Shown here: piece by piece, positions 39,441 to 60,663 of the stretch
Numbering within the stretch: position 1 is the stretch's first letter
Layout of the letters: each line of letters begins with the position of its first letter
NCBI GenBank assembly: GCA_937965695.1
Contig: CALCKW010000056.1
Location: 1-64,000 of the forward strand
Reading direction: 5' to 3'
DNA: 64,000 nt
From: an uncultured Granulosicoccaceae bacterium
Lineage (GTDB): Bacteria > Pseudomonadota > Gammaproteobacteria > CALCKW01
Notes under the pieces: generated by a model
What the model saw: the letters and a program-made list of their open reading frames with translations, nothing else
What the model was told of the DNA's origin: nothing
The model's database searches: none
Program-made: the position numbers and the translations under genes

Positions 39441-39449
39441 CAAGATCAC

Positions 39450-39749
39450 CTTCTCAATAGCGGATTAACACTTACAGTCCCTAACTCACCAAAAACCTGT
39501 AATCTGAGTTTTTTTGGGGCTCTTATGTAGTCTATCAGAGGTGGTACTATATCACATGGACAGCACGCCTTGCAGGCCTAGAACGGCTGACAATGGACTG
39601 TGAGACCACATGTAAGGACAACAGGATTAGTAAGGTACGTAGCCGGGTGACAGCATCAGCTGATTAGAAAAAACAATGCCTAGAGTTAGGCTTAAGCGAA
39701 CGCAAATAATAAAAGTTACAACGACAAACACCGAGACGAGAAATTCAGC
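39450..39749. promoter_or_regulatory. divergent promoter region between dehydrogenase and ABC/channel operon
   Basis: 300-nt gap that must carry both promoters. Visible symmetric sites: ATCAGCTGAT (39655-39664) and GCCTA-GAGT-TAGGC (39678-39691) followed by GCTTAAGC (39690-39697), all closer to the operon start. They are candidate operators; no sigma54 box seen. Confidence 0.5.
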
Positions 39750-40706
39750 ATGATTAGAACGCTTTTTATACTTTCTTCGATATTGTTCAGCTCTGCATCT
39801 ATAAGTGCAGATCTACCAACCATTCGCTTAGGAGCACTTGAATACGGGACAGTAAATTGGGAGCTGGACACGATAAAAAACAATCAACTGGATGAAAAAC
39901 ACGGCTTCAATCTTGAAGTGATCCCGATGGGCGGAGGCAGTGCTTCAGACATAGCCTTTTTAGGCGGTGAAATCGATGCCATGGTGTCTGACGTCATTTG
40001 GGCGGCAGCTCAACGCGCTGAAGGAAGAGACGTCAAATTCATACCCTACTCGACAGCTGTCGGTGGGATTATGGTTAAGGCGGATAGCAACATCGACTCT
40101 TTGAGTGATCTCGCGGACAAAAAGATTGGAATCGCTGGTGGTCCTCTAGATAAATCGTGGCTCATCCTTCAGGCATACGCGAAACAGCAAAACGTCATAG
40201 ACCTAAAGTCCGGCACCAAACAAGAGTTTGCTTCACCACCTATCATTTTTAAAGCGGCACTCAAGGGCGATATCGATGGTGCTATCAACTTCTGGCACTT
40301 TCAGGCAAAAGCCAAAGCAGCCGGTCTGAAGGAAATTGTTTCTGTACAGGACGCGGCGAAATCTCTAGGACTCGACCCTTCTGTACCCTTGTTAGGCTAT
40401 ATTGTCGGCGGAACTATGGATGACAGCTTATCTAAAGGGCTATTTGCCGCTTCTCGAGACGCTAAAGCAATGCTGCAGACCAGCGACGCTGCGTTTGAAG
40501 CGATTAGACCTAGAATGAACGCCAAGAATGATGCGCAATTCGACGCTCTCAAGTCCGGTTTCAGAGCAGGCATCCCTTCAACTGCAACTGTGGACGAGGC
40601 AGCGGTTGATAAAACACTGCAACTGATGGCAGAACTAGGTGGCCCCGACTTGGTTGGCAAGGCGACGACATTACCAGAAGGGCTCTTCATCACTTTAGAC
40701 CAGTAG
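39750..40706 (+). CDS. ABC transporter periplasmic substrate-binding protein (SsuA/NMT1-like)
   Basis: 318 residues: signal peptide to about residue 20 (SSASISAD), then the two-lobe fold of the SsuA/THI5-like family. Recognisable parts are TIRLGALEYGTVNWELDTIK, the MGGGSASDIAFLGGEIDAMV strand that lines the ligand cleft, and DLADKKIGIAGGPLDKSWLI. This family binds sulfonates, nitrate, thiamine precursors or similar. The location beside the quinoprotein suggests a ligand linked to it, but the chemistry is unknown. First gene of a seven-gene, tightly packed operon. Confidence 0.85.
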   Translation: MIRTLFILSSILFSSASISADLPTIRLGALEYGTVNWELDTIKNNQLDEKHGFNLEVIPMGGGSASDIAFLGGEIDAMVSDVIWAAAQRAEGRDVKFIPYSTAVGGIMVKADSNIDSLSDLADKKIGIAGGPLDKSWLILQAYAKQQNVIDLKSGTKQEFASPPIIFKAALKGDIDGAINFWHFQAKAKAAGLKEIVSVQDAAKSLGLDPSVPLLGYIVGGTMDDSLSKGLFAASRDAKAMLQTSDAAFEAIRPRMNAKNDAQFDALKSGFRAGIPSTATVDEAAVDKTLQLMAELGGPDLVGKATTLPEGLFITLDQ

Positions 40707-40711
40707 GCTCT

Positions 40712-41464
40712 GTGCGTAACGAACATCTCATACGCCTCGTTTCATTAGGAGCACTCCTACTCGCTTGGAGTGCTCTGTCGATTATCATGGCCGACCCGGA
40801 AATACTGCCTTCTCCCCGCTCTGTCATTCAGAAAATGGGCGAGCTTTGGGCGACTGGAGATTTACAAAAACATCTTTTAGATACCTGCTTTCGAATCCTA
40901 TGGGCGTTTTCCCTTGCCATGTGTATTGGAGGATTTTTAGGCTACTTTATGGGAAGGAACCCACTAGCTAACGCATGGATAGACCCTTGGCTTATTATTT
41001 TTCTTAACCTGCCGGCCTTAGTGCTCATTGTATTGTGTTACTTGTGGATTGGACTCAATGAAGTAGCCGCTATTCTCGCCGTAACCTTAAACAAACTGCC
41101 TCTTGTGATGACACTCATCCGGGAAGGTGCACGCAGTTCGTCCTCCGAACTACGAGACTTAGCCAAGGCCTACAAGCTGCCCAAACTTAAAGTACTGCGA
41201 CACATAATTTTACCCGAACTGCTCCCACATATTGTTTCAGCCGCTCGCACAGGGTTATCCATGATTTGGAAAATTGTTCTCGTGGTTGAGTTTTTAGGCA
41301 GAGGCACAGGTATCGGCAGGCAAATTCATACCCAGTTTTCAATCTTCAACATCACAGGTGTATTAGCCTATTCACTGAGCTTTGTCTTTTTTATTATGTT
41401 AATAGAACTACTTATCATGCAGCCGTTCGAACGCTACGCCACTCGGTGGAGGCAGCATGCTTGA
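40712..41464 (+). CDS. ABC transporter permease (SsuC-like)
   Basis: 250 residues from a GTG at 40712, 5 nt after the binding-protein stop. About six membrane helices; the coupling-helix motif EAA region reads SELRDLAKAYKLPKLKVLRH then IILPELLPHI, with the usual G replaced (A-K-A-Y). HIVSAARTGLSMIWKIVLVVEF and GRGTGIGRQIHTQFSIFN fit BPD_transp_1/SsuC permeases. It overlaps the ATPase gene by 8 nt. Confidence 0.88.
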   Translation: MRNEHLIRLVSLGALLLAWSALSIIMADPEILPSPRSVIQKMGELWATGDLQKHLLDTCFRILWAFSLAMCIGGFLGYFMGRNPLANAWIDPWLIIFLNLPALVLIVLCYLWIGLNEVAAILAVTLNKLPLVMTLIREGARSSSSELRDLAKAYKLPKLKVLRHIILPELLPHIVSAARTGLSMIWKIVLVVEFLGRGTGIGRQIHTQFSIFNITGVLAYSLSFVFFIMLIELLIMQPFERYATRWRQHA

Positions 41465-42065
41465 AGTGAATGTGACCGGTAAGTTTTTTGGTGATCAAAA
41501 AATTCTTGGCGCATGCAAACTAAAATTAAAGCCAGCCGAGCGTATTAGTATTCTCGGACCATCTGGCGTGGGGAAATCTACACTACTTCGTATAATTTCA
41601 GGCTTAGATACTAATTTCGAAGGCGTTGTTAAGTGTCCTGAAAAATTGGCTTTTATGTTTCAGGGGCCCAACCTACTAGCGTGGAGAACCTGTTATCAGA
41701 ACCTGTTAATTTTTCACCCCGAAGTCAGCCAAACTGGAGCAACGCAGATGCTTGAGCAAGTCGGGCTCGGCGACAAAGGTTTTTTTTATCCCGATCAACT
41801 ATCATTGGGCCAACAACGTCGTCTCGCGCTTGCAAGAACATTTCTTAGCCCCGCTGATATTATTCTCCTCGATGAGCCATTCACATCGCTTGATCCAAAA
41901 CTAAAGTTAGAAATGCTAACGTTGACGAGAACGCTTCTGGATCAATCAAAATCCACTCTTGTGCATGTCACACATGATATTTCAGAATCTGAATACCTCA
42001 TGTCAAATGCAGTGGAGTTAAAGGGCAATCCGGCCACATTGCATCACCAAGCTTCTGATGAATAA
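41457..42065 (+). CDS. ABC transporter ATP-binding protein (SsuB-like, short)
   Basis: 202 residues, shorter than usual SsuB (about 250). Walker A GPSGVGKSTLLR, Q-loop FMFQGPNLLAWR, signature LSLGQQRRLALART, Walker B IILLDEPFTSLD and the switch His HVTHD are intact, so it should hydrolyse ATP. The missing part is the C-terminal extension. It overlaps its neighbours by 8 nt on both sides, showing translational coupling to the permease and the ExbB-like protein. Confidence 0.9.
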   Translation: MLEVNVTGKFFGDQKILGACKLKLKPAERISILGPSGVGKSTLLRIISGLDTNFEGVVKCPEKLAFMFQGPNLLAWRTCYQNLLIFHPEVSQTGATQMLEQVGLGDKGFFYPDQLSLGQQRRLALARTFLSPADIILLDEPFTSLDPKLKLEMLTLTRTLLDQSKSTLVHVTHDISESEYLMSNAVELKGNPATLHHQASDE

Positions 42066-42714
42066 CCGCCCTCCTTACTTTATTTTAACGAGCTTGCTAT
42101 GGCTTAGCGGGCTCGTCGTGTTTATCACTCTGGCCTCATGGGACACTGGTCTACTCACGGGTGTTATCGAAAATGATCGAACACACATAAGCTCTGTACT
42201 GCTCATCACGCTTTTTTTCGCAAATATGCACTGTATCTACCGTGCTTATCGCCTTTCGTGTTCCGAGCGTGATTTGTCCGCGTGGGAAAAGGGAATGAAG
42301 GTTCATGATCAACATCTGAGCTCTGTCTTACCCCTTCTTTCATCCGATAACAATAGATATGTATCAATTAATGGAGAGTTGTTAGCAGAACACTTTCACT
42401 ACCAACATTCCTTTGGCTGGTTTACAGTTGGTGCAATGATCAAGCTGGGACTATTGGGAACAGTCATCGGTTTCATCATCATGCTAACTTCGATTATCGG
42501 GCTTGATTCACTAGAAATAGAGCAAGTACAACACCTCATGCAACAAATGGCGGAAGGCATGATGGTCGCGTTGAACACGACTCTGTTAGGCCTTGTAGGT
42601 AGCTTAATATTGGGCGTTCAATACTTGTTTCTTGACCACTCAGCTGACCAACTTCTAGCGCGCGCTATGATCTGGCAGCAACAGGTTAGTCAGGAACAAA
42701 AACAAGGAAGCTGA
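42058..42714 (+). CDS. MotA/TolQ/ExbB family proton-channel protein
   Basis: 218 residues with four predicted membrane helices (about 8-30, 43-65, 120-148, 165-188). The last two carry the family's core: IKLGLLGTVIGFIIMLTSII and MAEGMMVALNTTLLGLVGSL, equivalent to the LGLLGTVxG and A-L-x-T-T-x-x-G motifs of ExbB, TolQ and MotA. Such proteins surround ExbD/TolR/MotB helices and convert proton flow into motion. An ABC ATPase gene overlaps it upstream and an ExbD-like gene follows after 4 nt. Coupling of a proton channel to an ABC importer in one operon is unusual. Confidence 0.8.
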   Translation: MNNRPPYFILTSLLWLSGLVVFITLASWDTGLLTGVIENDRTHISSVLLITLFFANMHCIYRAYRLSCSERDLSAWEKGMKVHDQHLSSVLPLLSSDNNRYVSINGELLAEHFHYQHSFGWFTVGAMIKLGLLGTVIGFIIMLTSIIGLDSLEIEQVQHLMQQMAEGMMVALNTTLLGLVGSLILGVQYLFLDHSADQLLARAMIWQQQVSQEQKQGS

Positions 42715-42718
42715 GCTC

Positions 42719-43330
42719 ATGTCGCTATTTCGCTCCCGAAAATCAAATGGCAACTCAGGGAGTGATCCTTTCACCGACCTATTGTTCAACGCGTTACTCA
42801 CCTTTACCTTTCTATTTTTAATATCACTACTGCTGATAAATCCGCCCGCTAAAAGCGGTATCATTGACCCTAAAGCGGAATTTTTAATCACTGTCAGCTG
42901 GGAAGACGGAAGCGCCAATGACATCGACACTTGGGTTCAAGGACCGCAAAACAAAAGGATCTGGTTTAAGCAAACACAAAACGGACTCATGCATCTCGAC
43001 CGAGATGATCGCGGTGCTGCCAACGACACTCAGCAAGTCAATGGCAAGGAAATAATCAACCCACTAAACCAAGAAGTAGTGACGATACGCGGTCGACCAC
43101 CGGGAGAATTTATCGTCAATGTTCACTACTACAAGAGTGAAGATCAATTGGAAGTACCTGTCACAATTTATCTCGCCGAGGTTAACCCAACACTGAAAGT
43201 ACTGCACTACGCCACACTCAATTTAAAGAATGAAGGGGAAGAAAAAACAGCCGTACGCTTCACTTTAAATGGCCAAGGGAAAGTCGAAAACATCAATACT
43301 CTTCAAACTAATATTGTTGGCAACCTCTAA
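42719..43330 (+). CDS. ExbD-like membrane segment fused to DUF2135-like periplasmic domain
   Basis: 203 residues. Short cytoplasmic start, then one membrane helix preceded and entered by Asp (SDPFTDLLFNALLTFTFLFL), the layout of ExbD, TolR and MotB with their proton-carrying Asp. The remainder is a predicted beta-sandwich: TVSWEDGSANDIDTWVQGPQ, LMHLDRDDRGAAND, REPPGEFIVNVHYY-type strands. The W-x-x-x-x-x-D-I-D-x-W-V and D-R-D-D pattern recalls DUF2135/YfaP domains. It lacks the usual ExbD C-terminal fold. Partner of the preceding ExbB-like protein by position. It ends overlapping the next ATG by one base. Confidence 0.65.
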   Translation: MSLFRSRKSNGNSGSDPFTDLLFNALLTFTFLFLISLLLINPPAKSGIIDPKAEFLITVSWEDGSANDIDTWVQGPQNKRIWFKQTQNGLMHLDRDDRGAANDTQQVNGKEIINPLNQEVVTIRGRPPGEFIVNVHYYKSEDQLEVPVTIYLAEVNPTLKVLHYATLNLKNEGEEKTAVRFTLNGQGKVENINTLQTNIVGNL

Positions 43331-43839
43331 TGAATGAATCAATTTTTCTAATCGTTTGCGCCAATGTTCTGGTTTTAGCCTTGTTAATGCTGGTTTTGTT
43401 GTTTAGCCGGCTTCACTGGGCATACAGACTATCGCTTGTTTTTTTAGTCAGTGGTGCATACTGGGTTCTGTACCAAGGATGGATACAAGCCCAAGGGTGG
43501 CCAACAAACAACAGTTTGCCCCATAAATTTTTGTTGCACGGAGCGGTAATTGAAGAACCCGCTCCTGATAACAAAAACACAGGCACAATTTTTATATGGG
43601 CCACTGATCTTGATAACCACCTGCCAGCAGGAAAACCAAGAGCCTATGAAACCCCTTATTCCAAAAAACTGCATAGCGCTACTCAAGAAGCGTTGAATCA
43701 AATGAGAAACGGGGAGTTGCAGTTGGGCACAAAACAAGAAGAACAAAAAATCAAAACAACCAGAAGTGGCTACGAAGGTGAAGTACCTTTATTGATTGAG
43801 TTCTCTAACTTACCCAGTCAAGCACTACCAGAAAAATGA
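43330..43839 (+). CDS. hypothetical membrane protein of the channel operon
   Basis: 169 residues: two N-terminal membrane helices (about 5-25 and 32-50), then a polar, probably periplasmic domain of about 115 residues (FKLLHGAVIEEPAPDNKNTG-like stretch, GTIFIWATDLDNHLPAGKPR). No family recognised. The ATG overlaps the preceding stop (TAATG) and the end overlaps the lipoprotein gene by 4 nt, so it belongs to the operon. It may be a structural subunit of the channel complex. Confidence 0.7.
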   Translation: MNESIFLIVCANVLVLALLMLVLLFSRLHWAYRLSLVFLVSGAYWVLYQGWIQAQGWPTNNSLPHKFLLHGAVIEEPAPDNKNTGTIFIWATDLDNHLPAGKPRAYETPYSKKLHSATQEALNQMRNGELQLGTKQEEQKIKTTRSGYEGEVPLLIEFSNLPSQALPEK

Positions 43840-44555
43840 AAAAAGCTATTACGGTGTGTCTAGTATTTGTATCCCTTGTCTTGCTGAATGCTTGTGAGGA
43901 TCGCATTGAAAGCACAGACTATTTCCCCTTAGGTGTAGGGCTCACGTGGGAATATAGACACCAAACTAACACGCAAGGAAGAAGTACACACGGAACATAT
44001 ACTGTCACCAACTATGCAAAGAGCAAAATTGACGACGAGAATACCACCGTTCGAAGAACCGACGACGGCAGAGACTATTACCTTATTAGAAAACCAGACG
44101 GGATCTATCGTTACGCCACTCGTACTCTCTTCGAAACACATCCAAAAAAAGATAATACCCCTCGAATGGTCCTGCCCATTCCTTACTTGGATTTCCCAAA
44201 CACTCAATGGTCCGCATCAACGACTCACTACATTATCAAAAGAACGGGCCCTTCTACAATCAGCAGCGCAAATGACACGATTGAAGATTTTGTCATGAAT
44301 TATCATGTCGCTTCGATAGATGAAACGGTGGAAGTGCCTGCGGGGAGGTTTGAGAATTGTATACTGGTGGAAGGCGATGCCACACTGACTTTGTTTGCCG
44401 ACCCGTACACGGGTTTTGAGGACATCCCCATTAAAACTCGCGAGTGGTATGCGCCAGGCATTGGGCTGGTCAAACTTGAACGCACCGAGCCACTGGATAC
44501 GCGCGTGTATAAGGGGGGGAGTTACACCTTTGAACTCACTAATTTTTCAGACTGA
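43836..44555 (+). CDS. outer-membrane-type lipoprotein of the channel operon
   Basis: 239 residues. Signal peptide with lipobox VLLNAC (Cys20), then a beta-rich domain: DYFPLGVGLTWEYRHQTNTQ near the start and IKTREWYAPGIGLVKLERTE near the end. This layout is seen in many uncharacterised bacterial lipoproteins with a lipocalin-like or YceI-like beta barrel. ETVEVPAGRFENCI is the usual central strand. Last gene of the seven-gene operon; it converges with the ABC-2 permease gene (17-nt gap). Confidence 0.78.
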   Translation: MKKAITVCLVFVSLVLLNACEDRIESTDYFPLGVGLTWEYRHQTNTQGRSTHGTYTVTNYAKSKIDDENTTVRRTDDGRDYYLIRKPDGIYRYATRTLFETHPKKDNTPRMVLPIPYLDFPNTQWSASTTHYIIKRTGPSTISSANDTIEDFVMNYHVASIDETVEVPAGRFENCILVEGDATLTLFADPYTGFEDIPIKTREWYAPGIGLVKLERTEPLDTRVYKGGSYTFELTNFSD

Positions 44556-44572
44556 ACTCTCGCTAGATACTG

Positions 44573-45355
44573 TCATCTAAATTTTCTCTTAAGACGTTTA
44601 CGTTTTGACTGGTAACCCCAAACTGCCAGAGAGAAAAAGAAAACAAAACACGTGAAAACAACAAATAGATTTACCCACTCAAGTTTTCCGTAAAGGGTAA
44701 ATCTTATTAACTCCACACCATGGGTAAAGGGATTCAAGCTTACGACCTTAGCTAGCCAAGGCGCATTCTCCTGTATTCTCCACAGTGGGTATAGTGCGGT
44801 AGATGCGAAAAAAAGCGGGAAAATAACAAAATTCATCACGCCCGCAAAATTTTGCAGTTTTGATATAAACGTCGATATAAGCAAGCCTAGAGAGCCGAGC
44901 ATCATTGCCGAGAGAAATATGGCAGGTGCTGCCAACAAATAACCCAGCGGCTCTATTTTGATGCCAAAAAAATAGGCGATAAATAAAAAGGCCCAGACCT
45001 GAATCAAACCGACAGACGAGCTTGCAATAAGTTTGGATAACAGCATCCACTGACGTGATATAGGTGCGACCAATAACAATTTCATGGAACCCATTTCACG
45101 ATCATAGACGATACTCAACGCGGACTGCATGCTATTGAAAAGTACAATAATTCCGCAAAGCCCCGGCACGATATAAGTCTCATACCGAATATAGGTTTCA
45201 TAAGGAGGGTAAATCGCTAAGCCCAACGCCGCACGGAAGCCAGCACCAAATATAAGCAGCCAAACAAGCGGTCTCACAAGTGCAGCGATAAAGCGTTCAC
45301 GTTGATGCACAAAGCGTAGCAACTCACGCCAGATAATCGCGCCCATCGCACTCAT
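44573..45355 (-). CDS. ABC-2 type transporter permease of the PQQ-alcohol system (PedC-like)
   Basis: 260 residues with six membrane helices. RPLVWLLIFGAGFRAAL, VPGLCGIIVLFNSMQSALSI, YDREMGSMKLLLVAPISRQW and ASTALYPLWRIQENAPWLAK are typical of ABC-2 permeases. It overlaps the ATPase gene by 4 nt and is the last gene of a five-gene unit that resembles pedA1A2BC of Pseudomonas putida and lut genes of Methylobacterium, known to be needed for lanthanide-dependent growth. Direction of transport is not settled for this class. Confidence 0.87.
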   Translation of the reverse strand: MSAMGAIIWRELLRFVHQRERFIAALVRPLVWLLIFGAGFRAALGLAIYPPYETYIRYETYIVPGLCGIIVLFNSMQSALSIVYDREMGSMKLLLVAPISRQWMLLSKLIASSSVGLIQVWAFLFIAYFFGIKIEPLGYLLAAPAIFLSAMMLGSLGLLISTFISKLQNFAGVMNFVIFPLFFASTALYPLWRIQENAPWLAKVVSLNPFTHGVELIRFTLYGKLEWVNLFVVFTCFVFFFSLAVWGYQSKRKRLKRKFR

Positions 45356-46065
45356 AGTCGCAGGGTCTCTTCTTTTTCCACCGTGAATCTTGATCTAACC
45401 CCGTCAACCCCGCCAAGTGCAAAAAACGAATCCTGATCTCGAAGCTCGCCTTTCTCAAGCAAAATGACAGAATCTTGTTCTTCAATTTCATCCAATAAAT
45501 GAGTCACCCACAAAACACCAACCCCTTGATCAGCCAACAGATGGATTTGTTTAGACATCTGTTGCCGGATAACAGGATCTAGCCCGTTTGTCGCCTCGTC
45601 TAATATCAAGATTTCTGGGCTAGGCATTAATGCTCTAACAATCTCTAAACGCCTTTTGTGACCACCATTGAGGTTGCCGGCTTTTTCGGTGCGTTGTTCC
45701 CAGAGGTCGAACTCTGTCAGAAGCTTTTCAGATTTTGCTTTGTAGTTTTTGAGCCCGAACAGACCGGCGAAATACTGAATATTCTGCTGCACAGACAGCT
45801 CAAGATCTAGAGTGTTTTCCTGGAAGACAAACCCGATTTTTAAGGCTTGCTCCAATCGATTGGAAGCATCCACTCCGCCAACAGAGACACGGCCTTTATC
45901 GGGGGCAAGTATTCCCGAGATAAGATTGAAAATGGTCGATTTACCAGCGCCATTTGCGCCGAGCAATGCGGTAAAACCACCGCCTTTTATATGAAGATTA
46001 AAATTTTTTAAAACGGTCTTTTTATCATAAGAGAAATCGACATCTTCCAAATGTATTTCCCGCAC
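45352..46065 (-). CDS. ABC transporter ATPase of the PQQ-alcohol system (PedB-like)
   Basis: 237 residues from a GTG at 46065 that overlaps the preceding stop by one base. Walker A LLGANGAGKSTIFNLI, Q-loop VFQENTLDLELSV, a signature LNGGHKRRLEIVRAL with G-G-H in place of S-G-G-Q, Walker B ILILDEATNGLD and switch His VTHLL. The LNGGHKRR variation is typical of the PQQ-dependent-alcohol-dehydrogenase-associated ATPase family. It pairs with the ABC-2 permease downstream. Confidence 0.88.
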   Translation of the reverse strand: MREIHLEDVDFSYDKKTVLKNFNLHIKGGGFTALLGANGAGKSTIFNLISGILAPDKGRVSVGGVDASNRLEQALKIGFVFQENTLDLELSVQQNIQYFAGLFGLKNYKAKSEKLLTEFDLWEQRTEKAGNLNGGHKRRLEIVRALMPSPEILILDEATNGLDPVIRQQMSKQIHLLADQGVGVLWVTHLLDEIEEQDSVILLEKGELRDQDSFFALGGVDGVRSRFTVEKEETLRL

Positions 46066-46505
46066 TACTTAATCTCAACGTCCAGTTTTTGACTCTCGCC
46101 TTTGCTACCAGGAATTTTTATCGTGTATTTACCAGGTTTGACGGCAATGAACCCAACTTCCATTGTTCCAGCATCATCAAACTCCAAAGACTCGACGCCA
46201 AAAGGACGAATTTCGAGGCCCTCTATAACAATCTCGTCAATCCAAATCGCCCGAGAAAAAGACGCCATATCCAGAGCTATTTCACCCGAACCGTCGGCTG
46301 TTATTTCGACCTCATAATAACTGCCCGACTTCAACGTCCACGGACCTCCTAAAGGCTCGCCCACAGACAAAATAATCTCAGGTAAATCTGTTTTATTCGA
46401 ACCTGATAGCAAGCCCGCTAACCCGAGAACATTTTTATCATCGTCATCTGCGATGACCAAATTGCTAAATAAAATACAAGCAAGCAAAGCGAAAGTACTT
46501 TTCAC
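46065..46505 (-). CDS. hypothetical exported protein in the PQQ ABC operon
   Basis: 146 residues: signal peptide to about residue 19, an acidic DDDDKN start, then a single beta-sandwich-like domain (GGPWTLKSGSYYEVEITADG, VGFIAVKPGKYTIKIPGSKG). The pattern looks like a small cupredoxin-like or Ig-like fold without visible metal ligands. It sits between the beta-propeller and ATPase genes, so it is probably a periplasmic component of the transport system. No named family recognised. Confidence 0.72.
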   Translation of the reverse strand: MKSTFALLACILFSNLVIADDDDKNVLGLAGLLSGSNKTDLPEIILSVGEPLGGPWTLKSGSYYEVEITADGSGEIALDMASFSRAIWIDEIVIEGLEIRPFGVESLEFDDAGTMEVGFIAVKPGKYTIKIPGSKGESQKLDVEIK

Positions 46506-46539
46506 GTAATAACTCCTCAGCAGGTTTCAAAATAAATCA

Positions 46540-47523
46540 CTAATTGTCCGTGGGGCGTGCTGCTGCCCCCCAGGGGAAGCGACCCACTTTGATCGCTTTG
46601 ATCGCTTCTAGTTTGTCTAGATCAATCACACTGACATCTCCCGATACGCCATTGGTAGTGAACAACTGTGTGCCGTCTGGAGAGAAGGCCATGTGCCATA
46701 CCCGTTTACCCACCAAAATATATTTGATCACCTCATAGCTAGTCGTATCGACAACCGCTATATGGTTTGCCGGACCGAGCGCGACAAAAGCGAGGCTGTT
46801 GTCTTGATTAAGTTCAACCCCTACAGGCTGAACTTTATCCGGATGAACACCGGGTATCTCGAAAACTATTTTGGACAGTTCGCTTTGATCGTCAGTCTTA
46901 AAAACAGTGACTGTCCCGCCGATTTCAGAACTGACCCAAAGTCGTTTACCGTCTGCCGTGAATTCAGCGTGGCGTGGTCGTGCATCCACAAGGCTATTGG
47001 CAAATATGGTGTTTGTCTGGGTATCAATCCAATGGGCCATATTGGTCGTTTCAGAGGTCGTTATGGAAACCATGCCATCTGGACTAACAGCCATGCCCTC
47101 TGGCTCCACACCAACATTTATTTGAGTCACTACTTTTCTGGTCTCAGTATCCACGACAGTGGTAATCGCATCGTCCTCATTGGCGATGTAAAGCAAGCGA
47201 CCATTGGGATGCAAAGCAAACTGCTCTGGGTCCTCCCCCGAAGGTAGATCGTAAAGAATTTCTCCCGACTCTACATCCATGACCTGCACTGCATCTGAGT
47301 CTGAAGCACATATATACAGATGTTTATAATCCTGAGAAAACGCAATACCTCTCGGGCGCTCCCCTACCTCGTACTCTCTCACAACCTCCAATGTTTTAGT
47401 ATCGATGACGACTACGGTGTCAGACTTCTCATTAGAAACCCAAATTTCATCTGCAATCGTTGGGGAAGTTAGCGATGAAAGCACAGCAGCTAAAAAAAGC
47501 TTTTTCCTGATAAATCTACTCAT
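46540..47523 (-). CDS. YVTN-type beta-propeller protein of the PQQ-alcohol system
   Basis: 327 residues: signal peptide (cleavage after PTIA), then seven blades with repeats such as DTVVVIDTKTLEVVREYEVG, ERPRGIAFSQD and EPEGMAVSPDG. This is the PQQ-dependent-catabolism-associated beta-propeller family. It overlaps the upstream binding-protein gene by 4 nt and is followed by the exported protein and the ABC genes. It is periplasmic and possibly a binding or docking component. Confidence 0.87.
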   Translation of the reverse strand: MSRFIRKKLFLAAVLSSLTSPTIADEIWVSNEKSDTVVVIDTKTLEVVREYEVGERPRGIAFSQDYKHLYICASDSDAVQVMDVESGEILYDLPSGEDPEQFALHPNGRLLYIANEDDAITTVVDTETRKVVTQINVGVEPEGMAVSPDGMVSITTSETTNMAHWIDTQTNTIFANSLVDARPRHAEFTADGKRLWVSSEIGGTVTVFKTDDQSELSKIVFEIPGVHPDKVQPVGVELNQDNSLAFVALGPANHIAVVDTTSYEVIKYILVGKRVWHMAFSPDGTQLFTTNGVSGDVSVIDLDKLEAIKAIKVGRFPWGAAARPTDN

Positions 47524-48683
47524 TGAAACACCTTACAATTTGATTCACCGCGATCATAACCCAATCCATCTAGTTCATTCGTGGCGTGCAGAAACCCTTC
47601 TAGCGGCGCCATAGCAACTAACGCACTCTGGTGCGCAAGCCCGATCGGCTGCCGCAGCTGACCGTTCCAATCTCTAAAAGACAAGGGCCGACCTTTAAAT
47701 CCAGCCAGCTCTATACCGTCAAGCAAATACTTCATTTGTGCCGCAGGCGTATCGAATTTCGTTTTGTTGTTAGCCTCGTCTATCGCCCGGAGTGCAATCC
47801 ATGCGGCATAGTCTTCACTCAGCATTGAACGACCAGCGGAAGACTTAAACCGACTCTGAAGCTGGGCAGAGCCCCATTGCTCAAAAACGCTTGACCAAGC
47901 GAGCGAGCGCAAGCCGTCCCCGCCAAAAACGGGTCTAGGTTTGTGCGTGTTGTATCGAATGTAACGGGCAAAATCATTCCATTCGTCAGCAACAAATAAA
48001 ACGTCATAGTCTCCCAGTTTCTGCGTTAAAAGAGACACTTCTGCCGCTGCCTGTCTGCGCAAATCTCCGTCGAGAATCCATTTAAGTTCGACATCAAATT
48101 CCAGCTGGTATTTTTTTGCCGAGCGTCGAAGCGCCTTGGCAAAATTAATATCCTCTCGACTGTTCCCTTCAAGCAGACTGAGGCGGTTCCATTTTTTCAT
48201 TATTAGAAACTGCATAAAGGCGTCAGAACGCATGGCGTAACTAGGAATCGTGTGCAGCAAGTTAGGGCGGCACTCCTTGTCGCGTAACTCAGCGTCATTC
48301 GACACTATATTAAAAAAGATCCGCGAGCTATCGGCAGCCCCGTCCACAACAGATAGTTGCTGTTTGGCATTCATGTCTAGCAATACATACGCTGCAACAC
48401 TGCTGTTCAATGCCAACTTTGCCGGTTCGATGTCCTCTTCACCAAATCGCTGCACATCAAGACGGAACTCATACCCTAGAAACCCCCCCGTTGTATTGTT
48501 GTCAGCCACAGCTAATTCAGCGCCGGATAAACCTAGATCATCAGGAATAGGGTCAAGATTGGATAAGGTAGGACGCTCTGGCTGATCAATTTTTAAGTAC
48601 AACACATCTACAACCTTGGCTTCTTCAGCGAAGATAGTAGTGCTAAAAAAAAGAATAATGAGTGATATGGTCAATTTTTTCAT
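47520..48683 (-). CDS. periplasmic binding protein of the PQQ-alcohol ABC system (PedA-like)
   Basis: 387 residues. Signal peptide, then a type I periplasmic-binding fold: LGLSGAELAVADNNTTGGFL (helix 1 with N-N-T-T-G), YVLLDMNAKQQLSVVDGAAD, CRPNLLHTIPSYAMRSDAFM and YDVLFVADEWNDFARYI. These match the PQQ-dependent alcohol dehydrogenase-associated ABC binding family. First gene of the five-gene minus-strand unit and divergent from the pedF operon. Confidence 0.87.
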   Translation of the reverse strand: MKKLTISLIILFFSTTIFAEEAKVVDVLYLKIDQPERPTLSNLDPIPDDLGLSGAELAVADNNTTGGFLGYEFRLDVQRFGEEDIEPAKLALNSSVAAYVLLDMNAKQQLSVVDGAADSSRIFFNIVSNDAELRDKECRPNLLHTIPSYAMRSDAFMQFLIMKKWNRLSLLEGNSREDINFAKALRRSAKKYQLEFDVELKWILDGDLRRQAAAEVSLLTQKLGDYDVLFVADEWNDFARYIRYNTHKPRPVFGGDGLRSLAWSSVFEQWGSAQLQSRFKSSAGRSMLSEDYAAWIALRAIDEANNKTKFDTPAAQMKYLLDGIELAGFKGRPLSFRDWNGQLRQPIGLAHQSALVAMAPLEGFLHATNELDGLGYDRGESNCKVFQ

Positions 48684-49428
48684 ATGCTTTTAGTGTCTAT
48701 AAGTCGTCGCTGTTTGCCATTAACTTCGCCGAAGTCACAGCCAAATCACACAGCGCTGTAAAATTTAAATTTCACACAACAGTTGTAGCCAGACAGTCTC
48801 TTCGCCCTACGAGACGCCAATCATAAAGCGCTTCAATGCGTGATACCAGTTTCCGAGCCGTAGGCTTCAGTTTATTTAGATGCACCTATTTGGCATAGAT
48901 TCAGCGGGATTTAATAGGGGTTTATTTGTGAAGATCAAAAGACTAATCTTTATAAAAACCAATCGCTTGATGCTTGTAAAGCACTGCGTTGAAGCTCACA
49001 CAGCGGAAGTCGCTTCGGCGAAACGGCACAGGATCACTTTCAACTTTTTTGTGTTCGCTGGAGAGCGATTCATCACCTATCATCAAAACCGCATACTGAG
49101 TTCTTTATTCCATATATTTCAATAGTTTAATTACTGTTCAAAGACAGAATACCTCAGCGGCTTGCAGCGACTTTTCAAACGTACTTTTCCTTTTCTCAGC
49201 GATTGATTGTGCAAATAAAGAAAACCAATAATCCCACCAGTCCTAACCTATATCCCCAAAATCCATCGATACCGCCCATAGACTGCAAATCTAGCATTTC
49301 ATATGGTAAGTTAGCTGTTGACCCTGCAAAAAAAGATTCGAAAAATCAGATGGGGCCAAAGGGCTTGTATTTGTCGATACTTCCCGTAGAAAATTTAACC
49401 AAAGTACAGGCTAGAAAGAGGACAGTCC
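48684..49428. promoter_or_regulatory. large divergent regulatory region between the two PQQ operons
   Basis: 745 nt with no convincing gene; an 81-codon open frame at 48880-49125 has no ribosome binding site or family. Related palindromes ACTTCGCCGAAGT (48723-48735) and CTTCGGCGAA (49013-49022) are candidate operators, one near each end. Confidence 0.45.
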
Positions 49429-50136
49429 GTGAAGACTTCATTGCTTTTATCCATACCCCTATCGGTACTCATATTTACCAACGCATTTGCGCACGGCGAC
49501 GTTACCCCACAGGCAATGGATACTTCCAGCTTGCCAGATGTCGGAGAAGAATGGCTCGAGGAAAACCCGTGGCGCGATCCCAGCACTGAGGTCTGGATGC
49601 AGGCTATTACCGTTGGGGCTTCAGGCTACAATCAAAATTGCGCACGCTGTCATGGCCTCGAGGTTGTCTCTGGAGGCATTGCACCTGACTTGAGGTATCT
49701 CAGCGCCGACGATGACGGTGACAGCTGGTATATCGAGCGCTTTAGAGTCGGAGCGACACAAAATGGCATCACGAAGATGCCTGGTTTTGAGCAAATTCTG
49801 GATCAAAGAGCTGCGTGGGCTATTCGCACTTACATTGAAACAAGGCCTGCTGATGACGCCTTCGACGCTCACAACGAACGCCTTGTGGCGATCCGCGATG
49901 AACTCACAGCCATGGCGCTCTCAATCTCAGAGGGAGCCGATGCCAGTAGCTTGGTCGATGGGGCCTCTAGTTTTAAAGCAGAATTGTCAGAGATAAACGC
50001 GACGGCCAAAACAGCCTCAAATGCTCCATTGGCAGAATCTGCTGCTTCCCGTGCAGCGGCCGCATTAGACGGTTCATCCAGTAGTTTCGCCTCAGCGGCA
50101 GAACTATTGACCATTGGCCTTAGCGCAGCGAAGTAA
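49429..50136 (+). CDS. pedF: cytochrome c-550 PedF family, C-terminally extended
   Basis: 235 residues from a GTG with AGAGGA upstream. Signal peptide to A22; the mature part begins HGDVTPQAMDTSSLPDVGEE, the PedF hallmark. The heme site is CARCH (71-75), with Met117 in TKMPGFEQIL as likely sixth ligand. It is the electron acceptor of PQQ ethanol dehydrogenases. The usual protein ends near residue 145; here about 85 further Ala/Ser-rich helical residues follow. It relies on the Ccm system for heme attachment. First gene of a four-gene operon. Confidence 0.9.
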   Translation: MKTSLLLSIPLSVLIFTNAFAHGDVTPQAMDTSSLPDVGEEWLEENPWRDPSTEVWMQAITVGASGYNQNCARCHGLEVVSGGIAPDLRYLSADDDGDSWYIERFRVGATQNGITKMPGFEQILDQRAAWAIRTYIETRPADDAFDAHNERLVAIRDELTAMALSISEGADASSLVDGASSFKAELSEINATAKTASNAPLAESAASRAAAALDGSSSSFASAAELLTIGLSAAK

Positions 50137-50147
50137 ACCACGCGACG

Positions 50148-51053
50148 ATGAAACGTTCCTATCTGTGTGTTGCACTGCTCTTAGCAGCTATCAACGGAAA
50201 AGCGCTCGCCAGCTGTGCTGACCTGGCGAAAGGTTTTAATGACGTTATCCCTGAGCGCTCAGACACCATCAATATTGTGGGGCAGGATTTCGACACCATT
50301 CTCGACCGCGGCTACATGACATTTGCCGTCTACGAGGATTTTGCCCCTTATTCTTGGAAATCTGGTTCGGAAGCAAAAGGTATTGATATTGAAATTGCTC
50401 GAGTCATAGCAGAGGAGATTGGAGTCGAGGCAAAGTTTAACTTTTTTGCCTCTGACGAAAATGTAGACGCAGACTTCCGCAACCAGATTTGGAGGGGCGG
50501 TTTAATAAACGGCGAGGTATCTAATGTCATGATGCATGCGCCCTACAACAAAGATCTGCAATGCAGGAATGAGTTTGTTGTATTAGGTGGCCAATACTTT
50601 AACGAAACATTAGCTACTGCGTACAGGATTGAAACCTTTCCCGACGGCGCCCCAACGACTCCTTACTATCGGTTTCACAAGGTTGGAGTTGAAAACCACA
50701 CGATATCCGATTTCTATCTTGGGAATTTCAACGGTGGTATGTTGCGCAAAAACGTTGTCCACTACGACAATCACCAAAAAGCGTTTGCTGGACTTAACAA
50801 GCGTGAAGTTGACGCCGTGATGGGAGTCAAAGGGAAGCTTGAGCATCTGGATCAATCGGATGATATCGCCGTAGATACCCCGCCGCTTGTCAATTTTGCT
50901 CTGAACGAATGGACCATTGGTATTGCAGTCAATTTTCGCTACAGAGAGCTTTATTATACCGCTGACGGTATTATTGCAGACATGGTAAACGACGGTAGAA
51001 TGAAGCAAGTTTTCGAAAATTATGAGGTCAGCTACATCGAGCCTAATTACTGA
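50148..51053 (+). CDS. quinoprotein-associated periplasmic binding protein (XoxJ/MxaJ-like)
   Basis: 301 residues: signal peptide (NGKALAS), then a type II binding fold of the SBP_bac_3 family: TFAVYEDFAPYSWKSGSEAK, GIDIEIARVIAEEIGVEAKF, DVDADFRNQIW-like segment and the second-lobe NREVDAVMGVKGKLEHL. Proteins of this group (XoxJ, MxaJ, PedG-like) accompany PQQ dehydrogenases and are thought to help activate or mature the enzyme rather than import a nutrient. It lies 11 nt after the pedF gene. Confidence 0.83.
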   Translation: MKRSYLCVALLLAAINGKALASCADLAKGFNDVIPERSDTINIVGQDFDTILDRGYMTFAVYEDFAPYSWKSGSEAKGIDIEIARVIAEEIGVEAKFNFFASDENVDADFRNQIWRGGLINGEVSNVMMHAPYNKDLQCRNEFVVLGGQYFNETLATAYRIETFPDGAPTTPYYRFHKVGVENHTISDFYLGNFNGGMLRKNVVHYDNHQKAFAGLNKREVDAVMGVKGKLEHLDQSDDIAVDTPPLVNFALNEWTIGIAVNFRYRELYYTADGIIADMVNDGRMKQVFENYEVSYIEPNY

Positions 51054-51066
51054 AGGTAATAATTAA

Positions 51067-53196
51067 TTGGTCAGATACATGAAAATACTGCAACACCTAC
51101 ATATTGGCACTATTTTCGTTATCAGCCTCATCTTCAGCTGTAGCCTCTCCGCCGACATCGTGACTGAAGATCGCATCCGATCAGAAGTCATTGCGCCTTA
51201 TAGCCTTGGCGGCAAAACAGAAATGGAGGGCGTTTGGGAGTTGCTCAATGGCAGTGGTGCCAAGGGCGGGTATGTCATAGAGAGTGAATGGATAAAACCC
51301 CTTCCAGGTTTTTCTGGAACACCCGTCAATCTCATCATCTTCCTAGACCTCGAAGGCATCATCATCGATGCCAAACTACTCAATCATAACGAACCCATTT
51401 TTGTCTCCGGCCTCGGAGAAGCTCCTTTTCGAGCATTTATCGAGCAATACCGTGGGCATTCCATCAATAGCGCCATCACCGTCGGTTCAAGCTACGGCAG
51501 CAATAAATCAAGTGGATCATTGATCTATTTTGACGGTGTCACCAAAGCAACCGCTTCTGTGCGCATCGCCCATGAAAGCATCCTCTCTGCAGCCCGTGAA
51601 GTCGCAAAATCAATGTTAAACGGCTTTTCAATGGTCAATGAAAAAGTCTACTTGAAACCTGACGAGGGCCTTTCTTATTCTTGGGATGAACTAGTCAGCA
51701 AAGGACTCGCTAGAAATTTAACGAAAACTCACGGCGAAGAACGCTCGCAATTTGCCGACACCCAGTGGCGCTCCGACGATCTATTCCCAGAAGCCGAAGA
51801 TGATGATCTATTTGTAGATTTATGGGTGGTGGATGTCACGCATCCTCATATTGCTCGTTCAGTCATGAGTGCGCGCATGTTCAAAGATTGGGAAAATTTC
51901 AAAAAAATTGCGCCGGATGACGAAACAATCCTTCTGATAGAACAGGGAAATCACGGCTTAGTCGACGAAGAATTTGTACGCAACACAGCACCACCTTTAA
52001 TTACGGCCAACCAAGATAAGTTCCCCCTATCCATTCGAGATGCTGACCTTCTCATTGACTTGAAAAAGGGAGTCCCTGACGATGGAACAGTAATGGTTGT
52101 GCGCCTCGACCGACGGCAAGGCTTTAGCCCTGTGAGAGAATGGGATCTAGGGCTTATTGCAACCCGACAACGAGGTATTCTAAAACCTGAAATTGGTGAA
52201 GCCGAGCTCAGTTGGAAATTTCAGGCGGACAAAGCGCTTTTTAGAATAGAAAAAGCCGTGCAACCGCCCACCCCTTTTGAGTCAGCGATCAACAGCCGTA
52301 TGGTTGATCTCATCATACTTGCTATTTTTTTAACGGCTCTTTGCCTTCTCGTTTTTTACAACCAAAAGTTCGTCAGAATTAGACATTGGAAATACCACAG
52401 AAGCCTCATCATGTTGTTTGTACTGGGCTTCATCGGTTGGTGGGGACAAGGACAACTCTCCATCGTGACACCGCTTGCTGCACTCATTGCAACCGCCAGC
52501 AGTAAACCGCTAGACTTCTTACTGTACGACCCCTTTTCGTTACTGCTTTGGGTCGTGGTCATTGGCAGCTTCTTTTTTGTCGGGCGAGCTTTGTTTTGCG
52601 GTTGGCTTTGCCCTTTCGGAGCCTTTCAGGATCTCATAGCGAGTTTGTCCAAGTGGCTGAAAATCCCACAACTAAAAGTCAACGACAAGTGGGATGCAAG
52701 ACTAAAGTCTGTCAAATACATCGCTTTGCTCGCTCTCGTTTCAGTCGCCTTTTTTGCACCACGCCAACTGGATACAGCCGTAGAGGTAGAGCCATTTAAA
52801 ACAGCAATATCCGTGTTTTTTATTCGCGAGTGGTATTACGTTTTTTATGCGGTACTGTGTTTAGGGGCATCGGTCGTTTTCTTCAAAGGCTATTGTCGGT
52901 ACCTATGCCCGCTTGGCGCGTTTATGGCTATTGGCGGATTTCTACGGCTTAGTAAATGGATTGATCGACGTGCAGAGTGCGGCTCCCCTTGCCAACTTTG
53001 CAAGGTGCGTTGCGACTACAATGCTATAAAAAAATCAGGAAAGATAACCTATTCCGAGTGCTTTGGTTGTTTAGACTGCGTCGATATTTATCAAGACAAA
53101 ACACAGTGTGTACCGTTGGTGCTGCACGAAAAAAGCAAGCTTAAAGGCGTAAACATAGAACACCGAACCACACCTGTTGCACATTCCGAAACCTAG
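51067..53196 (+). CDS. NosR-like FMN-binding and 4Fe-4S membrane protein
   Basis: 709 residues. Signal peptide, a periplasmic FMN-binding domain (about 40-190, with YFDGVTKATASVRIAHE at the flavinylation site), a unique middle domain, then five or six membrane helices (from about 415). Two Cys-rich turns follow the NosR/NapH pattern: FCGWLCPFGAFQD and YCRYLCPLGAFMA. The C-terminal ferredoxin part has CGSPCQLCKVRC and CFGCLDCVDIYQDKTQC. It probably moves electrons across the membrane to or from the periplasm, here beside a quinoprotein's cytochrome rather than N2O reductase. Start TTG 51067 (AAGG spaced 9) or ATG 51079. Confidence 0.85.
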   Translation: MVRYMKILQHLHIGTIFVISLIFSCSLSADIVTEDRIRSEVIAPYSLGGKTEMEGVWELLNGSGAKGGYVIESEWIKPLPGFSGTPVNLIIFLDLEGIIIDAKLLNHNEPIFVSGLGEAPFRAFIEQYRGHSINSAITVGSSYGSNKSSGSLIYFDGVTKATASVRIAHESILSAAREVAKSMLNGFSMVNEKVYLKPDEGLSYSWDELVSKGLARNLTKTHGEERSQFADTQWRSDDLFPEAEDDDLFVDLWVVDVTHPHIARSVMSARMFKDWENFKKIAPDDETILLIEQGNHGLVDEEFVRNTAPPLITANQDKFPLSIRDADLLIDLKKGVPDDGTVMVVRLDRRQGFSPVREWDLGLIATRQRGILKPEIGEAELSWKFQADKALFRIEKAVQPPTPFESAINSRMVDLIILAIFLTALCLLVFYNQKFVRIRHWKYHRSLIMLFVLGFIGWWGQGQLSIVTPLAALIATASSKPLDFLLYDPFSLLLWVVVIGSFFFVGRALFCGWLCPFGAFQDLIASLSKWLKIPQLKVNDKWDARLKSVKYIALLALVSVAFFAPRQLDTAVEVEPFKTAISVFFIREWYYVFYAVLCLGASVVFFKGYCRYLCPLGAFMAIGGFLRLSKWIDRRAECGSPCQLCKVRCDYNAIKKSGKITYSECFGCLDCVDIYQDKTQCVPLVLHEKSKLKGVNIEHRTTPVAHSET

Positions 53197-57436: not shown

Positions 57437-58963
57437 TTGCGTAGACTCTATTTAATTTTGGGCGACCAGCTTGATCGCGACTCTTTGATTTTTAAAGACG
57501 TCGACATCGAAAACGATTGCTTTTGGATGGCCGAAGTGGAGAACGAGGCCACCCACGTTTGGTCACACAAACAACGCATCGCTCTTTTCCTGTCGGCCAT
57601 GCGACACTTCGCCAAAGAGTTGCAGGATCGGAGACTCCCTGTTCATTACTTGGCTCTGGGTGAACACAGTTTCAGCAGTCTCGCTGACGCACTGTCAGAT
57701 ACCCTTTCAAAACAACAGCCCGAAGAAGTTTGGTGTGTCCGACCAGGTGACTTCCGTGTTTTTGAATCGTTGGTTAAAGTAACAAAGAAGCATAATGTCA
57801 CTTTCAAACAACTGCACGATCAGCATTTTCTCTCGACACCCGCTGAGTTTAAACAATGGGCGGGAGAGAAAAAGCAGCTTCGCCTGGAATACTGGTATCG
57901 AACACTTCGAAAAAAACACCAGATACTCATGGAAGACGAGAAGAGCCCTGTAGGCGGGCAATGGAACTACGATCAAAGCAACCGCAAGGCTTTTAAAAAA
58001 GACGGCCCCCAAGACATCCCCGCAACGTTTTCATGGACCGCAGATAAAATAACGAAAGAAGTTATTACACTGGTAAATGAAACTTACCCCACCCACCCAG
58101 GAGAGCTGAACGAACTCCACTGGCCAGTGACCCCTGTTCAGGCTGAGCAGGCGTTGGGTCGATTTCTTGACGAGTGTTTGAACAATTTTGGTGACCACCA
58201 AGACGCCATGTGGAGCGACGAGCCTTTTCTGAATCATTCGCTTATTTCGTCTTCACTCAACTTGAAATTGCTGCACCCTTTGACCGTTATTCAACAAGCC
58301 GAACACTATCACTGGGAAAAAGGAGCTCCACTTGCAGCAGTAGAGGGTTTTGTTCGTCAGATACTTGGATGGAGAGAATACGTGCGTGGCCTTTACTGGC
58401 TACACATGCCCGAGTGGAAAAACATGAATGCACTGGGCGCAGATAGGGATCTACCCGCTTTCTATTGGACAGGCGAAACAGAGATGAATTGCCTCAGTCA
58501 AACAATTCAGCAGACGTTAAAATACGGCTATGCACATCACATACAGCGCTTAATGGTAACCGGTTTGTTTTCCTTGCTTTACGGGGTAAAACCAAAACAG
58601 ATACACGAGTGGTATCTCGCTGTGTATGTCGACGCTGTAGAGTGGGTAGAGCTGCCGAACACCTTGGGCATGAGCCAGTACACTGACAATGGCATCATGG
58701 CGTCAAAGCCCTACGTTGCTAGCGGGAGCTATATCAACAAGATGAGCAACTACTGTAAACACTGCCGATTCAAACCCAGTGAAGCCACAGGAGAAGACGC
58801 CTGCCCTTTCACGACATTGTTCTGGGATTTTTTAGACTCTCACCAAGACAATTTCCAAAAAAATCCACGCATGGCTTTTATGCTAAAAAACTTGCAGCGA
58901 AAAGACGAGAATGAATTAACCGCAATAAGATCGCAAGCAAGAGAAATAAGACAGCTGTTTTAA
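57437..58963 (+). CDS. phrB: photolyase/cryptochrome-related protein, FeS-BCP type
   Basis: 508 residues, start TTG at 57437. The opening RRLYLILGDQLDRDSLIFKD and DCFWMAEVENEATHVWSHKQ are diagnostic of the deoxyribodipyrimidine photolyase-related family (bacterial (6-4) photolyases/CryB). The FAD-binding helical domain shows GFVRQILGWREYVRGLYW and LMVTGLFSLLYGVKPKQIHE then WYLAVYVDAVEWVELPNTLG. The 4Fe-4S ligands appear as the Cys in SNYCKHCRFKP and GEDACPFTT, with the fourth further upstream. It repairs (6-4) UV lesions with light. It converges with a BLUF kinase gene. Confidence 0.93.
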   Translation: MRRLYLILGDQLDRDSLIFKDVDIENDCFWMAEVENEATHVWSHKQRIALFLSAMRHFAKELQDRRLPVHYLALGEHSFSSLADALSDTLSKQQPEEVWCVRPGDFRVFESLVKVTKKHNVTFKQLHDQHFLSTPAEFKQWAGEKKQLRLEYWYRTLRKKHQILMEDEKSPVGGQWNYDQSNRKAFKKDGPQDIPATFSWTADKITKEVITLVNETYPTHPGELNELHWPVTPVQAEQALGRFLDECLNNFGDHQDAMWSDEPFLNHSLISSSLNLKLLHPLTVIQQAEHYHWEKGAPLAAVEGFVRQILGWREYVRGLYWLHMPEWKNMNALGADRDLPAFYWTGETEMNCLSQTIQQTLKYGYAHHIQRLMVTGLFSLLYGVKPKQIHEWYLAVYVDAVEWVELPNTLGMSQYTDNGIMASKPYVASGSYINKMSNYCKHCRFKPSEATGEDACPFTTLFWDFLDSHQDNFQKNPRMAFMLKNLQRKDENELTAIRSQAREIRQLF

Positions 58964-58977
58964 ACTAACTAGTCAAA

Positions 58978-59016
58978 TTTAGCGCGTCGACGGTGCGAGC
59001 AAGACTTGATCTGAGG
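58978..59016 (+). repeat. diverged direct repeat, copy 1
   Basis: Starts TTTAGCGCGTCGACGGTGCG just past the photolyase stop. It matches 60581-60619 at 30 of 39 positions without gaps, by eye. The two copies flank the BLUF-kinase gene. Confidence 0.55.
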
Positions 59017-59047
59017 TTTCCTAGTTAACTTTGTACGCGTTAGGTCG

Positions 59048-60163
59048 TCATGCGGCTACAGGATATGTAAAGTAAAACTTTGAGCTTTCACTTTCTGTCG
59101 ACGAAACCCATATTTTCCCTCGCCACTGTTCTACAAGTTTTTGGCAAGTCGCCAATCCCACACCGGATCCTGGGTAAGTGCTTTGATTATGGAGTCTGCG
59201 AAACATATCGAAGATTTGCTGATGATACGCTGAATCAATGCCAATGCCATTGTCTTGCACGCAGAACTGCCAATCGGCGCCAACCAATTTAGCTGAAACT
59301 TCCACTCGAGGAAATTCAGACTGATTATATTTTAATCCATTACTCACCAAACAATTTAAAACACGCCATATTTTTAGTTGATTAGCTTTTATCGTCGGTA
59401 AATTAATTTGGGTAAAAACCTCACATTTTTTGTTTTCTAACTTGGCAGTCGCAGCTATTTCCTTGACCAACAACCCCGTATCTACCCACTCAGTGACAGT
59501 TTGAGCATCCGTTTCAAAATGGCCAAGCACACCATCAATCAAATTGTCCATACGCTCGAGTGACCCTTCAATATATTTTGAAGGCTCGACAAACTCTGGA
59601 TCGATTGTTTCGCCTGCCTCTTCGACATACATTCCTATCAAGGCACGAATTGCTCTGAGGGGCGAACGAAGGTCATGGACAGCCATCGAAAGCGTATCTG
59701 CAATTTGCTTTAGCTCTTTTCTCGAGGCTGCCATACCGTGTAATACATGTTCATAAGCAATCTGCTTATAAATCAAAAAGGCTTGATCAAACTCTGCATT
59801 AGTAAAATTTTGATCAAAAGGCTGTAACGTACGATTAAGTTCGGACATTGCCGCAGCTGTATGCGTTGTTTTCTGTCGATCTTCCCAGTGCATGGACCAG
59901 CTTGGAAAACGTTTTTCTTCAAGCATGTGCTCTTCAGAGCGGTAGAATATTTGGTGCCGCTTGTCTCTTCCAATGCGATCCATTGTTCGTGCAAGGGCAG
60001 CAGCATCGCCCTCTATGTATTGCATAAAGAAGCCACTTTCGTAGTGCAAACAACCCGTGATTTCTTGTTCGCGATTACTACATATTGCCAGGCGCAGTAG
60101 CTCTTGCAACTCTGATTTTGAAAAGGGCTGCGTTTCTTGGCTGATGTACAAAATCGCGTGCAC
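59048..60163 (-). CDS. BLUF-domain blue-light sensor histidine kinase
   Basis: 371 residues from a GTG at 60163 (GGAG spaced 7). BLUF flavin domain at 1-95: the photocycle residues are present with canonical spacing, Tyr6 (ILYIS), Asn30 (CSNRE) and Gln48 (GFFMQYIEG). After a linker helix comes HisKA MAVHDLRSPLRAIRALIGMY with the phospho-acceptor His, and HATPase with NCLVSNGLKYNQS, QDNGIGIDSAYHQQI and GSGVGLATCQKLVE. No membrane helix. Blue light should set its autokinase activity. BLUF domains are more often alone or with EAL/PAC; the kinase fusion is uncommon. No response regulator gene is adjacent. It faces a photolyase gene. Confidence 0.92.
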   Translation of the reverse strand: MHAILYISQETQPFSKSELQELLRLAICSNREQEITGCLHYESGFFMQYIEGDAAALARTMDRIGRDKRHQIFYRSEEHMLEEKRFPSWSMHWEDRQKTTHTAAAMSELNRTLQPFDQNFTNAEFDQAFLIYKQIAYEHVLHGMAASRKELKQIADTLSMAVHDLRSPLRAIRALIGMYVEEAGETIDPEFVEPSKYIEGSLERMDNLIDGVLGHFETDAQTVTEWVDTGLLVKEIAATAKLENKKCEVFTQINLPTIKANQLKIWRVLNCLVSNGLKYNQSEFPRVEVSAKLVGADWQFCVQDNGIGIDSAYHQQIFDMFRRLHNQSTYPGSGVGLATCQKLVEQWRGKIWVSSTESESSKFYFTYPVAA

Positions 60164-60580
60164 TGTCCCACTCCTTTATCTTGGGTGGAGAGACAAGCAT
60201 TAAACAATATGGAGAAAATATAACCACGCTACTGATGAACATATAGCTGGTATCTAAATTTCCCTGCGAATTTCGAGCGCGAGTACAAGCTCAAACTCTA
60301 TAGCTAAGCGCATTTAATGTGCCGAGCCTAAAAATCAATAGTAGACGATGCGGACCCATAGAGAGCAGATAGCTGCGGTAAAGAAATACTATTCTACTTC
60401 AGTACCAAGGTAGTACAACTAACAACAGCTTTGAAATTTATCTCCTACCGCAATAATACTGCCTTGTAGATTCGTGTTCGAAAATCATCAAGGAAGTATC
60501 AGAATAAGTCAGGTAGTGAAGTCGATGTGAAAAACGTGGAGCCAGCAAGCGCTATTCCGCGGCAACAAGGTTGGACGAGT

Positions 60581-60619
60581 TCTAGCGCGTCGATAGCGGG
60601 ATCATGACCTGATCTTAGG
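60581..60619 (+). repeat. diverged direct repeat, copy 2
   Basis: Starts TCTAGCGCGTCGATAGCGGG; see 58978-59016. Within it GATCA-TGACC-TGATC is an inverted repeat not kept in copy 1. Confidence 0.55.
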
Positions 60620-60663
60620 CTCTAGATTTTCATAGCAAACTGCAGTTCAATCACGCAAAAATT

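Follow-up and report, generated by a model that had tools for sequence, protein, structure and literature searches.

Short BLUF photoreceptors and the OaPAC type (TePixD/Tll0078, Slr1694, AppA and OaPAC) contain no kinase, their output being either an adenylate cyclase or a separate partner protein, while in the BLUF-EAL proteins BluF/YcgF and BlrP1 an N-terminal BLUF domain drives a C-terminal EAL output domain. By published figures, short proteins make up 64% of BLUF proteins, and those with an EAL domain 34% (PMC4844311). Among photoreceptor kinases, those with LOV, phytochrome and rhodopsin sensors are well studied, whereas a 2019 review states that sensor kinases with BLUF units exist but that their characterisation lags behind (PMC6798134). 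The protein described here, hereafter the BLUF-kinase, is encoded in a 64,000-nucleotide stretch of gammaproteobacterial DNA, the whole of which is called the window (Table 1). It shares the N-terminal BLUF arrangement of the BLUF-EAL proteins, with a histidine kinase as output in place of EAL, and has the Tyr, Asn, Gln, Trp and Met of TePixD, Slr1694, AppA and OaPAC in register. Since the review already names BLUF units in sensor kinases, it is a further example of a kind that is already known, though little characterised.

An earlier note on this DNA had proposed a BLUF domain fused to a histidine kinase, and the fusion is confirmed: one unbroken frame joins BLUF and the kinase core in a single chain, and the observation is real and far beyond chance. 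BLUF, HisKA and HATPase_c are the only Pfam matches, and neither an EAL domain nor a bilin-binding sensor was found among them. A promoter and terminator scan at the gene gave no matches above chance.

Table 1. Features of the BLUF-kinase locus and its surroundings, in window coordinates.
Feature	Position	Strand	Basis and remarks
BLUF-histidine kinase gene	59048..60163	-	371 codons (371 aa) from the GTG start at 60163 to the stop at 59048; intact ORF; Pfam BLUF, HisKA, HATPase_c
BLUF domain, residues 3-91, with Y6, N30, Q48, W89, M91	59891..60157	-	Pfam and alignment
Linker, residues 92-155, mostly helical predicted (low confidence)	59699..59890	-	Between Pfam matches; low-confidence models
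HisKA (DHp), residues 156-213; phosphoacceptor H163 in HDLRSPLR	59525..59698	-	Pfam, alignment; 1.6 bits under cut-off
HATPase_c (CA), residues 262-369; N275, D304, G306, G308, G332, G334, G336	59057..59380	-	Pfam, alignment
Shine-Dalgarno-like AAGGAG	60171..60176	-	7 nt ahead of the GTG; from sequence
DPRP (deoxyribodipyrimidine photolyase-related protein) gene	57437..58963	+	Convergent neighbour, separate transcription unit; Pfam PF04244, E 9e-74
MITE-like repeat, diverged copy on the upstream side of the BLUF-kinase gene	60487..60625 (approximate ends)	+	nhmmer with repeat model
Partial MITE-like repeat copy, downstream, between the BLUF-kinase and DPRP genes	58974..59025 (approximate ends)	+	nhmmer with repeat model
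MITE-like repeat copy	17844-18026	-	

The BLUF match (PF04940) has an E value of 2.8e-23 and scores 82.3 bits against a cut-off of 25. Tyr6, Asn30 and Gln48 occupy the positions given in the earlier note, with the spacing of photoactive BLUF proteins (24 and 18 residues), and are invariant across a 12-sequence alignment. In a collection of 73 non-identical BLUF domains, Asn30 is present in every one, and Gln48 (72 domains, one gap) and Tyr6 (68 domains, five gaps) are unchanged wherever aligned. The pocket residues Trp89 and Met91, kept in 68 and 66 of the 73, are present as well and also fit the photoactive pattern, which had not been mentioned before. Among solved structures, residues 1-148 match only BLUF-containing chains by sequence, with OaPAC (8e-12), Tll0078 (TePixD; 2.5e-11) and AppA as the best matches. 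Confidence is low (mean pLDDT 47) in a template-free single-sequence model of the same residues. BLUF structures take all of the first 34 places among its Foldseek matches, but none reaches E 0.001, so the Foldseek support for the fold is weak. The full-length model is good only across much of the CA domain, where the blocks mostly have pLDDT 80-94 with lower values near residues 310-340 and at the C-terminal end, and because its alignment rows comprise the kinase only, the structure predictions give no reliable model of the BLUF part.

In its motifs the kinase core is complete, as previously claimed: His163 is present as phosphoacceptor, and so are all four boxes (N, G1, F and G2). HATPase_c matches at E 8.8e-22, while the HisKA match (E 1.6e-5, 25.3 bits) lies just below the Pfam cut-off of 26.9 with its motif intact. 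No aligned relative differs at H163, N275, D304/G306/G308, F318/F321/R323 or G332/G334/G336, and L165 and P168 are likewise invariant. The H+4 position is Ser167 rather than Thr or Asn, which in a HisKA kinase makes phosphatase activity uncertain. Coiled-coil heptads in the linker were not significant in two of the three segments scanned along it. The window encodes another histidine kinase of the same subclass (28236-30134, PAS-containing, 33% identity), and this one too has no regulator linked to it.

The domains, the key residues and the intact frame are read directly from the sequence, and we consider it probable that the BLUF-kinase is a soluble, cytosolic sensor histidine kinase under blue-light control. 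FAD, presumably bound in the BLUF domain, would absorb blue light, and the hydrogen-bond network of Tyr6 and Gln48 would rearrange into a red-shifted signalling state. This change would travel by way of the beta-sheet, and then of the helices that follow residue 92, to the DHp helices and there, with whichever sign light control may have, alter autophosphorylation at His163 and phosphotransfer. An unlikely alternative is that the kinase is functional but its BLUF domain serves as a flavin redox, temperature or dimerisation module rather than as the physiological light sensor. Other flavin photoreceptors are beginning to show light-independent roles beside light-dependent ones (PMC4844311), and BlsA is reported to integrate light and temperature signals (PMC5955987). 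However, a light-dead BLUF domain would be free to lose the residues of the light-switch pattern, and here all of them are kept, Trp89 and Met91 included.

The output of the BLUF-kinase was previously described as unknown for lack of a linked response regulator. The lack itself stands, as none of the 42 receiver matches in the genome lies on the 79-kb contig, and with no operon partner the phosphate would most likely pass to a regulator encoded elsewhere. The output can nevertheless be narrowed, because close kinases in other genomes are commonly followed by a single-domain Rcp1-like regulator. Such a regulator lies directly downstream on the same strand at 6/14 kinase loci from other gammaproteobacteria and at 2/9 from the genome contig collection, six of these nine being close Sphingobacterium copies. 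The loci concerned are L004, L005 and L020-L025; for L021 and L022 the adjacency was taken from coordinates, since their stop-to-stop frames overlap by more than the adjacency criterion allows. Rcp1 itself is matched by the L025 regulator with an E value of 8e-26.

Three single-domain Rcp1-like regulators are encoded elsewhere in the genome of the window (C2:315886, C41:3599 and C13:3170) and have the highest scores with the regulator profile; as these three were the sequences from which it was made, their scores are high by construction. In a comparison of one of the three with solved structures, RcpB came first and Rcp1 lower down. Each adjoins another kinase (on C2 a kinase-like gene with a marginal profile score only), to which it may be dedicated. 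As close kinases often precede such regulators and the genome has three, we propose that the orphan BLUF-kinase phosphorylates one of them; they are the best candidate partners, and our best guess is that the true partner is among them, although the chance of this is clearly below even. It is doubtful, but worth stating, that a recently acquired orphan BLUF-kinase adds blue light as an input to a shared, unlinked Rcp1-like regulator that other kinases also serve. The genome contains two additional short BLUF proteins, and a short BLUF gene lies divergent to a gene for a 606-aa histidine kinase (L073 2729-5082; contig C25 of the same genome, G000), which is possibly a second link between light and a kinase, in two proteins.

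BLUF-kinase fusions were said to be rare compared with short BLUF or BLUF-EAL proteins, and our survey agrees with this and with the published proportions. PF04940 was searched in four samples that overlap in part and together comprise about 1,400 genomes, of which roughly 240 have BLUF: 369 gammaproteobacterial genomes (48 with BLUF), 398 from the whole phylum Pseudomonadota (at least 119, the matches listed extending to about E 4e-23), 385 from another class of this phylum (55) and 395 from Bacteroidota, the phylum of a Sphingobacterium (45). The samples lie outside Cyanobacteria, Actinomycetota and others. Each listed BLUF frame of at least 300 aa above the family cut-off was examined with two local profiles, one of BLUF and one of the kinase subclass concerned, leaving aside three sub-threshold BLUF matches in the 385-genome sample. 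Among the matches listed in the four samples, no second BLUF-kinase was found and only the window protein matched both profiles, although the locally built kinase profile could miss kinases whose subclass is very different. Full-length relatives were also sought in the genome contig collection and 94 relatives, where essentially the kinase half alone was matched, and the BLUF-kinase is absent from three sequenced congeners. Two candidates were rejected: G081 is a kinase adjoining a truncated BLUF, and a long Deinococcus plasmid match (H1) is a kinase without BLUF. A search of viral contigs yielded no BLUF.

The other long BLUF proteins in the survey have different partners. Pfam identifies BLUF-receiver, receiver-BLUF, AraC-BLUF and BLUF-PsiE proteins, and judgement by eye adds BLUF-EAL proteins, BLUF-cyclase proteins and large GGDEF/EAL proteins whose BLUF is C-terminal. 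The response-regulator receiver domain occurs with BLUF in both orders (L065 1017-1934, L212 634-1593). AraC-type regulators with a C-terminal BLUF, apparently one-component blue-light transcription factors, were found in Bacteroidota (L170 471-1964, Pfam-confirmed; L171 381-1847 and 2022-3497). BLUF is fused to the membrane domain PsiE in L061 990-1937 (Pfam-confirmed) and in L122 3001-3897, which is annotated as PsiE and located on a Thiodictyon plasmid.

The surroundings of the gene bear on its history. Upstream, it is separated from an ArsR-type regulator by about 700 bp in which no ORF of at least 80 aa is listed, and its GC3 of 0.40 is the second lowest among 38 window genes compared. 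The repeat copies on both sides belong to a MITE-like family of 168 bp with terminal inverted repeats (ends CTAGGGAGCCTCAGATTAAGTC ... GACTTGATCTGAGGTTCCCTAG), of which at least 51 copies in both orientations were found by pattern in the genome of the window and none in the three congeners; no clear target duplication was seen. As members of a dispersed family, the flanking direct repeats were rejected as borders of a locus-specific gene cassette. Taken together, the low GC3, the flanking repeat copies and the surroundings suggest, without proving, that the gene is a recent arrival in the lineage. The same features, with its absence from the congeners and the lack of a nearby partner regulator, could also fit a gene that was fused or transferred recently, experiences little selection and is drifting towards loss. 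We find this improbable, as the frame is intact, all catalytic and photochemical residues are kept and the ribosome-binding site is good. It is very improbable that the BLUF-kinase forms a local blue-light module controlling DNA repair by the adjoining DPRP: the two genes lie tail to tail 84 bp apart, but they are convergent and not an operon, a partial copy of the repeat separates them, and all three congeners keep DPRP (47-49% identity) with no BLUF-kinase found beside it, so that the two are probably no unit and DPRP was rejected as an operon partner or conserved pair. Elsewhere in the window (37677-53196), a PQQ-type dehydrogenase, a cytochrome c, an ABC transporter and a NosR/NapH-like ferredoxin membrane protein form an apparent cluster, as judged by eye.

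The interest of the BLUF-kinase lies mainly in its use as a test case for coupling between BLUF and a kinase, because it is small, soluble and single-sensor and has every expected residue. It could show whether the subtle hydrogen-bond switch of BLUF is able to drive a kinase, and optogenetic tools could gain a BLUF-based kinase from it. New in this analysis are the Rcp1-like regulator that often lies directly downstream of close kinases, the short list of candidate partners that the BLUF-kinase now has, and the MITE-like repeat copies that flank the gene.

Kinases related to the BLUF-kinase often have a single-domain regulator of the Rcp1 kind next to them, as in Cph1-Rcp1 pairs. The BLUF-kinase itself has neither a linked regulator nor a bilin-binding sensor, and its downstream gene is the convergent DPRP. 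The LOV and bacteriophytochrome kinases and the engineered YF1 differ from it in their photosensor, which here is BLUF, and little has been done to characterise how BLUF couples to kinases (PMC6798134). By sequence comparison, the best PDB matches of its C-terminal part are histidine kinases, the bacteriophytochrome kinases among them, and like the LOV and bacteriophytochrome kinases and YF1 it would be a soluble photoreceptor kinase built of sensor, linker, DHp and CA.
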